Source: Bryobacterales bacterium (GTDB taxonomy: Bacteria; Acidobacteriota; Terriglobia; Bryobacterales; UBA6623). Taken from it: 51,046 nucleotides of DNA. The position numbers and the translations under genes are program-made. How positions within the stretch are numbered: position 1 is the first letter of the stretch; each line of letters begins with the position of its first letter. Shown piece after piece: positions 127-5,965 of the stretch. The stretch spans positions 1 to 51,046 of the forward strand of contig JAPPLB010000195.1 in assembly GCA_028819575.1 (NCBI GenBank), read 5' to 3'. A model generated the notes under the pieces. That model saw only the letters and a program-made list of their open reading frames with translations, made no database searches and was not told the origin of the DNA.

Positions 127-1443
127 TCATTCGCGCCCCCTATTGCGAAGCAACTCCTGCAGCCGCTCCGCGATGCGCTTCTCGACCCCGCGCCCGGTCG
201 GATGGTAGTAGCGGCGGCCCCGCAACGACTCCGGCAGACATTCCATGTCGGTGACGGCGTCCTCGAAGTGATGCGCATGCTGGTAGCCCTTGCCGTAGCC
301 CCATTGCTCCATGGCGCTCGTGGGAGCATTGCGGAGCTGCATCGGTACCGGATCAGCCATCGAGTTCCTCACGTCTCGCTTGACATTCCCCAGCGCCCGA
401 TACACGGCATCCGACTTCGGCGCAATCGCCAAGTACACGGCCACCTGCGCAAGCACCAGATCTCCCTCCGGTTCGCCGATCAGTCGAAACGCGTCCACGG
501 CCGCCACGGCCTGCTCGAGCGCACGAGGGTCCGCCAAGCCGATATCCTCGGACGCCATCCGAACCATGCGGCGCAGAATGTAGATACGATCTTCACCGCC
601 CTCCAACATGCGGCCCAACCAATAGAGCGCTGCATCGGGATCGCTCGACCGCACCGACTTGTGCAACGCCGAGATCAAGTTGTAATGCTCTTCACCGGAC
701 TTGTCGTACAGGACCACCTTGCGCTCGAGCACATCCGTGAGCAGCCCTTCGGTGATCTCACCGGCAGGTGCTGAAGCGACGGCGGCTTCCAGCGTCGCGA
801 GAGCAGCGCGGGCATCCCCGTTCGAGAAGAGAGCCATCCGTTCCAGCAACTCATCGGAAACAGAAATCTCCCTATCTCCAAGACCGCGATCCTTGTCCTG
901 CAGCGCCGTTTTCAGAATGCGCACCAACTCATCGGCCGTGAGCGCGCGCAGAATGTGCACTCGACAACGCGAGAGCAGCGCCGAAATCACTTCGAAAGAC
1001 GGATTCTCCGTCGTCGCTCCGATGAGAATCACGTCGCCGCGTTCGACATAGGGAAGGAAGGCGTCCTGCTGGGCCTTGTTGAAGCGATGGATTTCGTCGA
1101 CAAACACGACAGTCCTGATCCCGACCCGGCGAGCACGCTCCGCATCGGCCATGACAGCCTTCACTTCCTTGATGCCGCTCAGCACTGCGCTGAACGGAAC
1201 GAACTGACCGCGACCGGCCTTGGCGATCAGGCGGGCCAACGTCGTCTTGCCGACGCCCGGCGGTCCCCACAGGATCATCGAGCCGAGTTGGTCCCGCTCG
1301 ATCTGCACGCGCAACGGCTTGCCCTGACCCATCAGATGCTCTTGTCCCATGAACTCGTCCAAGCGGCGCGGACGCATACGATCGGCAAGAGGCCTTCCAG
1401 CAATGTCTTCCGCAATCGGAGGAGGAGGCTCGAAAAGGCTCAC
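127..1443 (-). CDS. rarA: Replication-associated recombination protein A (RarA/MgsA AAA+ ATPase)
   Basis: RarA is a clamp-loader-like AAA+ ATPase that acts at stalled or gapped replication forks together with SSB. The 438-residue product has the usual family length. Visible motifs are Walker A GPPGVGKTT (about residues 60-68), Walker B VVFVDEIH (about 111-118) followed by RFNKAQQDAFLPYVE, and the sensor-like GATTENPSF (about 142-150). The C-terminal half carries the conserved segment around YWLGRMLEGGEDRIYI. The ATG at 1443 overlaps the stop of the upstream methyltransferase by 4 bases, so the two genes are probably translationally coupled. The coupling is seen; the cellular role is family knowledge. 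Confidence 0.96.
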   Translation of the reverse strand: MSLFEPPPPIAEDIAGRPLADRMRPRRLDEFMGQEHLMGQGKPLRVQIERDQLGSMILWGPPGVGKTTLARLIAKAGRGQFVPFSAVLSGIKEVKAVMADAERARRVGIRTVVFVDEIHRFNKAQQDAFLPYVERGDVILIGATTENPSFEVISALLSRCRVHILRALTADELVRILKTALQDKDRGLGDREISVSDELLERMALFSNGDARAALATLEAAVASAPAGEITEGLLTDVLERKVVLYDKSGEEHYNLISALHKSVRSSDPDAALYWLGRMLEGGEDRIYILRRMVRMASEDIGLADPRALEQAVAAVDAFRLIGEPEGDLVLAQVAVYLAIAPKSDAVYRALGNVKRDVRNSMADPVPMQLRNAPTSAMEQWGYGKGYQHAHHFEDAVTDMECLPESLRGRRYYHPTGRGVEKRIAERLQELLRNRGRE

Positions 1444-2276
1444 CGCATGCCCCTGTCGTTCCGGCTCTCGCCGGAGGCGGACCGCCGGCGAGACGCCTCA
1501 TAAAGGACAACAGCGGCCGCAGCCGAGACGTTGAGCGACTCCACGGCTCTGGTCGGGATCCGAAGGTCTTCGGCGGCGTCCCGCAAAGCCGGCCCGACGC
1601 CGTGCGCTTCCGAGCCCAGCACGATCACACAGCCTCGCTCGAATCGTGCTTTAGAAAGCGGTCTTTCCGCCCGCGGGGACGCTGCGAAGCAACAGAGCCC
1701 ACGCTTATCGATTTCGTCAATCAACTCCTCGGGTTCAAGGCCTTCGATGTGCGGAAGACGAAACAGCGAACCGGCCGAGGCCCGCAACGTCTTGGGATTC
1801 GCGGCGTGCGCGGTCCCCTTCAGCAAGACAACACCCGTTCCCCCAAAAGCCTCCGCGGTGCGCACTATCGTCCCGACGTTGCCGGGGTCTTGGATCGCGT
1901 CAAGAGCAACCACGAGAGGAACGCCCTTGAAAAGTTCATCGAGATCACATTTAGGAGGCTCCACGAGCGCCAGCACGCCTTGACTCGTTTCCGTGCTCGT
2001 GATCTGAGCGAACAAGTTGTCATCGACAATGCTGAGCGTCACATCACCATGACCGCGCAGCCTTGCTTCGACCTCGCGCCGCCTGCGCACTGCGGCAACT
2101 ACCGTGTCAACCTTGAGCCGACTCGCCAGCGCTTCGTCAAACAGACGTAAGGACTCAGCGACCCACAGGCCCTTTTTTGTCGCAGCGGACCGGGTCACTG
2201 CGCGGCGTACATCCTTGATGAGCGGATTGCTCGGACTTCGCAGCTCAGAAACGGGCCGGGCCAAGACGCAACTCAT
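1440..2276 (-). CDS. TrmH/SpoU family RNA 2'-O-methyltransferase
   Basis: This 278-residue protein is a SPOUT-class RNA ribose methyltransferase that would use S-adenosylmethionine on a tRNA or rRNA nucleotide. An N-terminal substrate-binding part (about 15-105) is followed by the knotted catalytic domain with its three motifs: DAIQDPGNVGTIVRTAEAFG (about 126-145), VLGSEAHGVG (about 219-228) and ESLNVSAAAAV (about 246-256). The target cannot be told from sequence; RlmB-like 23S modification is one possibility. It is the first gene of a two-gene unit with rarA (4-base overlap) and is divergent from the threonylcarbamoyl-AMP synthase gene, with 36-39 bases between their starts. Confidence 0.93.
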   Translation of the reverse strand: MSCVLARPVSELRSPSNPLIKDVRRAVTRSAATKKGLWVAESLRLFDEALASRLKVDTVVAAVRRRREVEARLRGHGDVTLSIVDDNLFAQITSTETSQGVLALVEPPKCDLDELFKGVPLVVALDAIQDPGNVGTIVRTAEAFGGTGVVLLKGTAHAANPKTLRASAGSLFRLPHIEGLEPEELIDEIDKRGLCCFAASPRAERPLSKARFERGCVIVLGSEAHGVGPALRDAAEDLRIPTRAVESLNVSAAAAVVLYEASRRRSASGESRNDRGMR

Positions 2277-2305: not shown

Positions 2306-2315
2306 TCGAGGAGTG

Positions 2316-3119
2316 ATGTTAACCGGCATTTCTCACCACACGACGGTCGCAGCACACGATACGACCGCCATGACTTCGTTGCGCTTGCTCGCCGTGCTCG
2401 ACGTACTGTCAAGTACGCCTGCGCGCGCCAAGCGGCTCGCGCCTCGTCCTGACGGCCCTCTCACGCACTTCGCCTCGCCATGTGGTGAGAAATGCCGGTT
2501 ATTGCCCGTGGATCCTCGCCGGCCTGATTGGGGGAAGGTTCGCTGCATCGCAAGCGCGATTCGCCGCGGCGCCGTGGTTGCCATGCCTACCGACACCGTG
2601 TACGGGCTGGCAGCGAATCCGTATGACGACAAGGCCGTCCGGAGGCTTTTCCGCCTCAAGCGGCGTCCGGAGACGAAGCCAATCCTCTTGCTCATCGACG
2701 GGTGGCAGCGGCTGGCTCCGCTTGTCAGTACCTTCCCCCCTCGGTTTGAGGAGATTGCCTCCCGCTTCTGGCCGGGCCCGTTGACCGTTATTCTGCCGGC
2801 AAGCAAATCCGTTCCGGAACTCATCACGGCCGGGACCGGCAGCGTTGCGGTGCGCTGTCCCGGGTCACCCTTGATCCGGATGCTCAGCCGATCTCTCAGG
2901 TATCCCCTTACGGGCACAAGCGCCAATCTTTCAGGCCTTGCCGCGGCCACAACGGCGAAAGAAGTGATACGGCAGTTCGGCTCGAAGCTCTGTTATGTTG
3001 TCGATGGCGGCCGGTCGGCCGGCCGGCAGGTATCGACGATCGTCGATCTCAGCAGAGAGCCCTGCGTGATACGGTCCGGAGCCATACCGATCGAGGAACT
3101 GGATGCGTACCTGCGATGA
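2316..3119 (+). CDS. L-threonylcarbamoyladenylate synthase (Sua5/YrdC/YciO family) with an in-frame repeat-element insertion
   Basis: The enzyme makes threonylcarbamoyl-AMP from threonine, bicarbonate and ATP for the t6A modification of ANN-decoding tRNAs. The catalytic YrdC fold is clear from AIRRGAVVAMPTDTVYGLA, the KRRPETKPILLLI strand, FWPGPLTVILPA, VAVRCPGSPL and TGTSANLSG. The ATG at 2316 is followed after one codon by a 180-bp inverted-repeat element (2321-2500) that contributes 60 stop-free codons. Without it the protein would begin MLLPVDPRRPDWGKV, a normal N-terminus for short family members. The real start could instead be TTG 2502 or GTG 2508, downstream of the element. It overlaps the next gene by 4 bases. 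Confidence 0.9.
   Translation: MLTGISHHTTVAAHDTTAMTSLRLLAVLDVLSSTPARAKRLAPRPDGPLTHFASPCGEKCRLLPVDPRRPDWGKVRCIASAIRRGAVVAMPTDTVYGLAANPYDDKAVRRLFRLKRRPETKPILLLIDGWQRLAPLVSTFPPRFEEIASRFWPGPLTVILPASKSVPELITAGTGSVAVRCPGSPLIRMLSRSLRYPLTGTSANLSGLAAATTAKEVIRQFGSKLCYVVDGGRSAGRQVSTIVDLSREPCVIRSGAIPIEELDAYLR
2320..2501. repeat. MITE-like element, copy A (178 bp plus flanking TA)
   Basis: The ends form a perfect 20-base inverted repeat: AACCGGCATTTCTCACCACA at 2321-2340 and its complement at 2481-2500. The element proper, starting ACCGG and ending CCGGT, is bounded by TA at 2320-2321 and 2500-2501, consistent with a TA target duplication. A central hairpin (CGTACT at 2402-2407, AGTACG at 2412-2417) lies between the ends. 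It carries no gene of its own and is inserted inside the 5' end of the sua5-type gene. Confidence 0.88.
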
Positions 3120-3727
3120 GCGAAGAAGCCAAGCCACGCCGCCATCGACGATGGGTCGTTCTGCTTCTGATCGTCGCCGCTCTTGGCGCCGCCTACTTCT
3201 CGAAGGTCTATTACAGCGTTTGGCGCCAAGCCCGCATCGATGAGGCGCGGCAGGTAGATGTGATCGTCGTGCTGGGCGCGGCCCAATATTGGGGCCGTCC
3301 CTCACCAGTTCTTCGGGCGCGCCTTGACCACGCTCTCAAGCTCTACCGGGATGGCATTGCGCCACGCATCATCACGACAGGCGGCGTCGGCGAGGGAGCA
3401 GCCTTCTCTGAAAGCGAGGTCAGCCGCGAGTACCTATCCCAGCAAGGCGTTCCGGCTGAGTTCGTAACCGTCGAAACAGAAGGCAAGTCCACGGTTCAAA
3501 GCGCCCTGGCCGTCGCGGAAATCATGGACCGCATGGAGCTGCGCACCTGCGTCGTCGTCAGCGACGCCTACCACATTTTCCGAATCAAGCGCATGTTCGA
3601 GTCGCTGGGAATCGAAGTTTACGGTTCGCCGCGACGACCCCAGCAGATCAGCGCGTGGCGCAGACATTGGTTCTACGCCCGAGAATCCCTGGGTTACATT
3701 CTGTGGCGCGTCGGCATCCAAGTCTAG
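3116..3727 (+). CDS. YdcF/SanA/ElyC-like DUF218 membrane-anchored protein
   Basis: This 203-residue protein has one N-terminal membrane helix (about residues 13-30, WVVLLLIVAALGAAYF) followed by a DUF218 domain. Signature segments are VDVIVVLGAA (about 47-56), RARLDHALKLY, PRIITTGG and ESEVSREYLSQQGVP. The C-terminal VVVSDAYHIFRIKRMFESLG is also typical. Members such as SanA and ElyC affect envelope integrity and peptidoglycan or lipid-carrier metabolism, but their reaction is not settled. The ATG overlaps the upstream stop by 4 bases (ATGA). Its TAG stop (3725-3727) is partly supplied by the left boundary of repeat copy B. Confidence 0.88.
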   Translation: MSEEAKPRRHRRWVVLLLIVAALGAAYFSKVYYSVWRQARIDEARQVDVIVVLGAAQYWGRPSPVLRARLDHALKLYRDGIAPRIITTGGVGEGAAFSESEVSREYLSQQGVPAEFVTVETEGKSTVQSALAVAEIMDRMELRTCVVVSDAYHIFRIKRMFESLGIEVYGSPRRPQQISAWRRHWFYARESLGYILWRVGIQV

Positions 3728-4019
3728 CCTGCCTTTCTCACCACCCGACGGCCGAAGCACGCGAAAAAAGCCGTGTTTCGTGATTCGTGATTCGTGAAAA
3801 CCATTGGCTAGGCCTGGTTTGCTCCAGCAGAAATGTCTGACGGCCAGTGAACCGTTCAGGCCGTGATTCGTGTCTCGTGTCTCGTGTCTCGTGTCTCGTG
3901 ATTCATGAAAAACCTTAAAGGCCGTCTTGCGCGCGCCTTTTTCCTCCGCCCGGCTCGCGCCTCGTCCTGACGGCCCTCTCACCCACGTCGCCTCGCCAGG
4001 CGGTGAGAAAAGCAGGCTG
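3725..4019. repeat. MITE-like element, copy B, with internal heptamer arrays
   Basis: The left end AGCCTGCCTTTCTCACCAC (from 3726) and right end GGCGGTGAGAAAAGCAGGCTG (to 4019) are imperfect inverted repeats of the same family as copies A and C. The right half from about 3930 matches the other copies closely (CCTTTTTCCTCCGCCCGGC, then CTCGTCCTGACGGCCCTCTC). The central part is replaced by about 130 bases holding two CGTG heptamer arrays (3769-3800 and 3861-3909). It fills the gap between the YdcF-like and phosphatase genes. Confidence 0.85.
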
Positions 4020-5772: not shown

Positions 5773-5965
5773 TAACCTGCATTTCTCACCACCCGACGGT
5801 CGAAGCACACGATACAACCGCCATGACTTCGTTGCGCTTGCTTGCCGTGCTCAACGTACTGTTCAAGTACGCCTGCGCGCGCCTTTTTCCTCCGCCCGGC
5901 TCGCGCCGCGTCCTGACGGCCCTCTCGCGCACTTCGCCTCGCCATATGGTGAGAGATACAGGTTA
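5773..5965. repeat. MITE-like element, copy C (189 bp plus flanking TA)
   Basis: The ends are ACCTGCATTTCTCACCAC (from 5775) and ATGGTGAGAGATACAGGT (to 5963), imperfect inverted repeats. TA sits immediately outside at 5773-5774 and 5964-5965. The interior matches copy A nearly throughout, including the CGTACT/AGTACG hairpin, and has an additional CCTTTTTCCTCCGCC stretch. It lies between the divergent ThiF/MoeB and TamA-like genes, upstream of the latter's putative promoter. Confidence 0.9.

Follow-up and report, generated by a model that had tools for sequence, protein, structure and literature searches.

Can a mobile repeat enter the first codons of a probably essential gene and leave the gene in working order, and where would translation then begin? 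The question is raised by sua5 of a Bryobacterales species, found on a contig of 51,046 nucleotides (C34, here called the window) belonging to a 5.4 Mb genome in 200 contigs (G000). Three congeners have been compared: the window genome, the sister species G002 (Bryobacterales bacterium MAG APA_bin_29, contig JAPOOG010000162.1), about 95% identical and the nearest of the relatives compared, and a third congener, G001. Each species is represented by one MAG, and the insertion is known from one locus in one MAG.

A MITE in the first codons of sua5

The features of the locus are listed in Table 1. The sua5 frame reads MLTGISHHTTVAAHDTTAMTSLRLL...GEKCRL, then LPVDPRRPDWGKV..., and is open throughout the element over 267 codons. 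The product is a threonylcarbamoyl-AMP synthase (Sua5/TsaC), scoring 169.8 bits on the equivalog TIGR00057 (cut-off 123.2) and 188 bits on PF01300. PF01300 is matched once in G000, by sua5, once in G002 and twice in G001. Many relatives also give two matches, and a second TsaC-like copy seems to have been lost in the common ancestor of G000 and G002. As sua5 is the sole PF01300 gene in the genome, its loss should be costly. No relative of sua5 was found among viral contigs. The divergent gene upstream is presumably a methyltransferase of the SpoU/TrmH type, as judged by sequence.

Table 1. Features of the sua5 region (positions in the window)
Feature	Position	Strand	Basis or remark
Divergent rRNA/tRNA methyltransferase-like gene	1440..2276	-	ORF list; 39 bp from ATG 2316
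GAGGAG, Shine-Dalgarno-like motif	2308..2313	+	Sequence; 2 nt from ATG 2316
Fused reading frame	2316..3119	+	Begins MLTG...; 60 element codons precede LPVDPRRPDW... of threonylcarbamoyl-AMP synthase
Left target repeat TTAA	2319..2322		Empty site of the sister is TTAT
Left terminal inverted repeat	2320..2340		Self-match; 21 bp, perfect to the right one
MITE, 182-bp class, IS1380-type ends	2323..2498		176 bp plus flanking repeats
Right terminal inverted repeat	2481..2501		Self-match; perfect, 21 bp
Outward terminal ATG of the MITE	2492..2527	+	Out of the sua5 frame: MPVIARGSSPA, then stop
Right target repeat TTAT	2499..2502		Comparison with the empty site of the sister
TTG, alternative, possibly ancestral start	2502..2504	+	Empty allele; in-frame start list
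GTG, second alternative start	2508..2510	+	In-frame start list
Second family member	3725..4019		Variant of 295 bp with an extended internal part; G002 lacks it
Third family member	5773..5965		193 bp; absent from G002, single TTAA there

The net insert is 180 bp, or 60 stop-free codons, placed in the TTAT target of ATG-TTA-TTG-CCC. An earlier note on this DNA had described a repeat inserted in frame and without stops in the threonylcarbamoyl-AMP synthase gene, and had predicted that deletion of 180 bases would restore a normal N-terminus. Both statements are borne out: the frame is open, the repeat is a multicopy MITE, and removal of the 180 bases gives ATG TTA TTG CCC GTG GAT, identical to the base to the empty allele of G002. 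The latter reads GAATTCGAGGAGTGATGTTATTGCCCGTGGATCC, encodes an uninterrupted ATGTTATTGCCC and has MLLPVDPRRPDW intact, so that an orthologue lacking the repeat does resume at MLLPVDP, as anticipated.

Another, independent MITE of this family is present in G002, at the TA of GTAATAGAATTC; this site lies 20 bp upstream of the sua5 insertion and is empty in the window genome. G001, which reads MPVPRIDPRKPDW, has neither insertion. Since the two insertions occupy different sites, each empty in the other species, the two species received their insertions independently, within one short stretch. The repeats flanking the sua5 copy, TTAA and TTAT, match the empty TTAT imperfectly, one base beside the left end being different (3/4 match). 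The G002 copy is the mirror case, with repeats ATAG and CTAG and an empty site ATAG. End-proximal mismatch repair and mutation are the sole explanations we can offer for the odd base next to the element end. The middle of the MITE variant at 3725-4019 contains short tandem units of the GTGATTC/GTGTCTC kind.

The MITE family and its probable mobiliser

The sua5 element is short (176 bp), lacks a transposase gene and is bounded by perfect 21-bp terminal inverted repeats. No match to it was retrieved from Rfam. In its own genome blastn yields 47 matches, 42 of which nearly full-length, and the terminal motif, with up to 3 mismatches, occurs in 1,260 copies against 5 for the reversed control. With up to 2 mismatches, terminal repeats number 1,070 in G000 (525 + 545), 545 in G002 (279 + 266) and 16 in G001 (7 + 9), while none of 38 further relatives has more than 3. 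The family is thus a recent burst limited to the genus. Copies share CCTGCATTTCTCACCAC ends and have modal lengths, TA to TA, of 182 and 183 bp. Many contigs of G000 (C3, C6, C8, C16 and C24, for example) terminate inside MITE repeats, which means that the assembly is broken up by the burst itself.

Two intact IS1380-family insertion sequences, 97% identical and with bodies of 1.72 kb, were identified at L122:1257-2979 and L125:1256-2979. Both end in the 16-bp terminal repeat of the MITE, identical in L125 and with one mismatch in L122, and are flanked by 4-bp YTAR duplications (CTAA/CTAA and CTAG/CTAG). The encoded transposase scores 385 bits on the equivalog NF033539 (cut-off 180). The MITEs show the same kind of duplication: bases at outer and inner flanks correlate as a 4-bp YTAR duplication predicts (p=0.001, p=0.0002), whereas two control pairings of flanks gave no significant correlation. 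The duplication is fully preserved (4/4) in 24 of 86 copies, and is backed by empty sites in G002, where a single TTAT or TTAA is found at 2320 and 5773. These similarities suggest that the MITE is probably mobilised by the IS1380-family transposase of the same genome. MITE and insertion sequence agree only in their 16-bp ends and not in the body; an origin of the MITE by mere internal deletion from this insertion sequence was therefore rejected. IS630 (PF13358) was rejected as mobiliser, no matching ends being found around its copies, and a target duplication of TA only was dropped in favour of the 4-bp YTAR after the flank correlation. The copy statistics concern about 0.7 Mb of stretches, corresponding to about 13% of the genome and partly picked for good copies.

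An open frame common to one length class

The class of 182 bp, which adds 180 bp, makes up about one fourth of the copies, and in 17 of 19 of these the same single frame is open end to end. At the phase of sua5, the copies that are both in frame and open number 20 of 80 for one orientation and 2 of 80 for the opposite one (22/160, about 1/7). For the frame, a claim to exceed chance holds only in part, as about one in seven random copies and orientations would also be in frame and open; the compatible combinations give a modest, about 7-fold preference to models in which the frame matters. A frame tailored to sua5 was rejected, the open frame and the one-base shorter class being common to about one fourth of the copies. 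Similarly, the sua5 copy had been presented as a mobile repeat converted into coding sequence. It is mobile and in frame; the open frame already existed in the 182-bp subfamily before insertion and gives no evidence of conversion, so that a coding role is plausible and unproven. The frame of the sua5 copy is set by one base missing near 2408, as read in the MAG consensus.

The element frame encodes a leader which includes LLAVLDVLSSTPAR and MTSLR...PDGPLTHFASPCGEK. It differs from the subfamily consensus by 4 synonymous and 5 non-synonymous changes, and shows no sign of codon-level constraint in a test that, with 9 changes, has no power. In the predicted structure pLDDT stays below 50 in the leader and, past the junction, mostly exceeds 90 in the enzyme domain; the leader is thus predicted to be disordered and the YrdC domain to be unaffected. 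Elsewhere this enzyme tolerates additions at its N-terminus, as in the human protein, which carries a targeting segment.

No recurrent in-frame insertion with the same peptide was found: among about 85 sampled copies, sua5 is the only case in this frame. A MITE in reverse orientation (L110:6831-7012), read in another of its frames, is also in frame inside a 260-codon frame resembling a phage tape-measure protein, and a frame for a CocE/NonD-like hydrolase has a diverged copy (L067:16451-16647) in frame at its signal-peptide region. In a histidine kinase (L058 4478), what looked like a further in-frame copy was a false end-pair.

Where sua5 translation may start

In-frame starts are available at GTG 2313, ATG 2316, ATG 2370, TTG 2379, TTG 2385, GTG 2394, TTG 2502 and GTG 2508. 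The earlier note placed the element after codon 2, which is correct if ATG 2316 is the native start; however, GAGGAG is 2 nt from this ATG, and in the empty allele is better spaced, at 8 nt, from the TTG corresponding to 2502. In G001, similarly, the sua5 ATG directly follows GAGAG, and better spacing is offered by a GTG located two codons further down. RNA folding predicts a perfect 21-bp stem whose arms lie immediately behind ATG-T and immediately ahead of TTG 2502 (-99.9 kcal/mol, z -3.9), and such a stem could block initiation at ATG 2316. By a heuristic count, starts at TTG and GTG seem common in the genome (18 and 24 of 85), and Shine-Dalgarno motifs are weakly used (24/85, with a background of 12/85).

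We favour read-through from ATG 2316, which looks the probable course, over initiation at TTG 2502 or GTG 2508, which appears doubtful. According to the former, a non-autonomous IS1380-type MITE, moved in trans by the IS1380-family transposase, would have reached the 5' end of sua5 and entered the TTAT of ATG-TTA-TTG after the split from the sister species. The insertion would have been tolerated because the copy belongs to the 182-bp class, which lengthens the gene by exactly 180 bp and is stop-free as oriented and phased here. Ribosomes would start at the native ATG 2316, which is intact, and read 60 element codons into the enzyme, and the outcome would be a functional fusion of 267 residues, with a disordered leader preceding an intact YrdC domain. 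A further point in favour is that the terminal ATG of this copy, of the kind that seems to serve three other genes, is out of the sua5 frame. Insertion, empty site, family, likely mobiliser and open frame are observed; read-through as the overall explanation is, in our judgement, reasonably probable.

Translation might alternatively begin downstream at TTG 2502 or GTG 2508, the element being 5'-leader RNA and its open frame coincidental. The ancestral start may even have been TTG 2502, and the MITE would then lie between the Shine-Dalgarno motif and the start codon. The spacing of TTG in the empty allele speaks for this, and the frequency of TTG and GTG starts, together with weak Shine-Dalgarno use, makes a plain restart at TTG 2502 credible as well. 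Yet once the element is in place, TTG 2502 has no canonical Shine-Dalgarno motif close by and lies within predicted local structure, and the open, in-frame state would be a coincidence of about 14%; we consider this explanation rather unlikely. The earlier note had weighed a tolerated leader against a restart at TTG 2502 or GTG 2508, and both remain real alternatives, but a third route had been overlooked. Folding of the 21-bp stem in the mRNA might bring GAGGAG beside TTG 2502, as the predicted stem spans 2320-2501, with GAGGAG about 6 nt from it and TTG directly behind. The precedent is offered by T4 genes 25 and 38, in which a hairpin between the Shine-Dalgarno motif and the start codon splits the ribosome-binding site (PMC3014915). 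The predicted placing of the hairpin is the same; here, however, it is formed by a 180-nt mobile insert and not by a short evolved stem, T4 inserts being of tens of nucleotides. Moreover, any palindromic insert would fold likewise, and a split site seems improbable.

The insertion could instead have crippled sua5, the gene being in decay, or could be carried by only a minority of the population behind the MAG. The window branch has accumulated 8 non-synonymous and 4 synonymous changes in sua5, against 2 and 3 on the sister branch; these are too few to separate relaxed from normal constraint, but are not reassuring. The sequence is moreover a MAG consensus, and many contigs end in these repeats. 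Against this stand the frame intact over 267 codons, the retention of all invariant columns, the lack of a second PF01300 gene and the synteny of both flanks with the sister species, and we give little credit to this possibility.

Terminal ATGs as putative start codons

Typical MITE ends carry an outward GGTGAGAA-ATG (GGTGA-GAA-ATG), the ATG being kept in 132 of 170 sampled ends. In three genes of the sampled stretches, encoding Pfk, a PDH-type E1 and RapZ, a MITE lies within the first codons, and its terminal ATG is the first in-frame start. Since this ATG is found one codon behind a stop (TGA-GAA-ATG), no native upstream start is usable in any of them. The pfk gene (L076:5322-6855; G000:C51:25322-26855) lies between two MITEs, both G002 and G001 being empty there. 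The native ATG GCT has been displaced, and the N-terminus is MQARKRIG, compared with MARKRIG in G002 and MAKKRIG in G001; the stop TAG, too, derives from flanking sequence, that of the second MITE. In the PDH-type E1 fusion gene (L103:4276-6440; also L145, L146) the MITE is in codon 4, and the N-terminus is MQVKKTQPG; G002 has an empty site and MANVTKTQPG. The insertion in rapZ (L115:1545-2611; also L149, L150) is common to both sister species. The MITE bodies have diverged, and terminal ATG and frame are retained in both (MPAETSS and MTAETSS); in the two species rapZ appears to start at the terminal ATG of an old MITE copy that they share. In all three genes the terminal ATG appears to be the new start, replacing a displaced native one.

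Genes in frame with the terminal ATG were not enriched in a crude test on the genome sample, the three phases including 15, 21 and 4 coding-like frames; the case for start donation is therefore made by the three orthologue comparisons. As a tentative proposal, about which we are less than evenly confident, the MITE may be tolerated at the very beginning of core genes by virtue of two traits: both of its ends would act as portable translation starts, and one length class has a single frame that is open and in phase.

Relation to known elements

Correia and ERIC elements are MITEs of 100-250 bp, found in many copies near genes at TA-containing targets. By description only, the Bryobacterales family resembles them in size, copy number and targets, but its partner is of IS1380 type.

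In-frame fusions of MITEs are already known, and are reported as nothing unusual among MITEs located within genes (PMC10969869). The most striking case is that of the Rickettsia palindromic elements (RPE), short repeats with palindromic ends found in frame in housekeeping genes, to which they add tens of residues (reviewed in PMC10969869). The sua5 MITE is similarly an in-frame, stop-free insertion in a conserved gene. In contrast, three RPE families insert repeatedly with a conserved peptide, while this MITE is seemingly mostly intergenic, has one length class in phase, and its frame is open whatever the site. Coxiella QMITEs are high-copy MITEs which overlap annotated genes and contribute codons or stops; they are found at the 3' ends of functional genes and at no 5' ends (PMC5896051), whereas here gene starts are hit. 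What is new is a very-high-copy, IS1380-partnered MITE with 5'-end insertions in core genes, the terminal ATGs of which appear to replace native starts. No description of MITE terminal ATGs replacing native starts was found in the open-access literature.

The sua5 locus provides a case, controlled by an empty site, in which a transposon has moved into the coding frame of a gene that is probably essential. With hundreds of copies in one genome and a close sister at hand, the survival of N-termini under a transposon burst can be counted. If terminal ATGs are used as suggested, genome annotation in the group may misplace starts, and the tolerance of start sites becomes testable on a natural series of insertions. 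If the proposal is true, the MITE would donate, according to phase, either a start, as in pfk, PDH-type E1 and rapZ, or a 60-residue leader, as in sua5, and the N-termini of many proteins could be rewritten in a MITE burst that the host survives.
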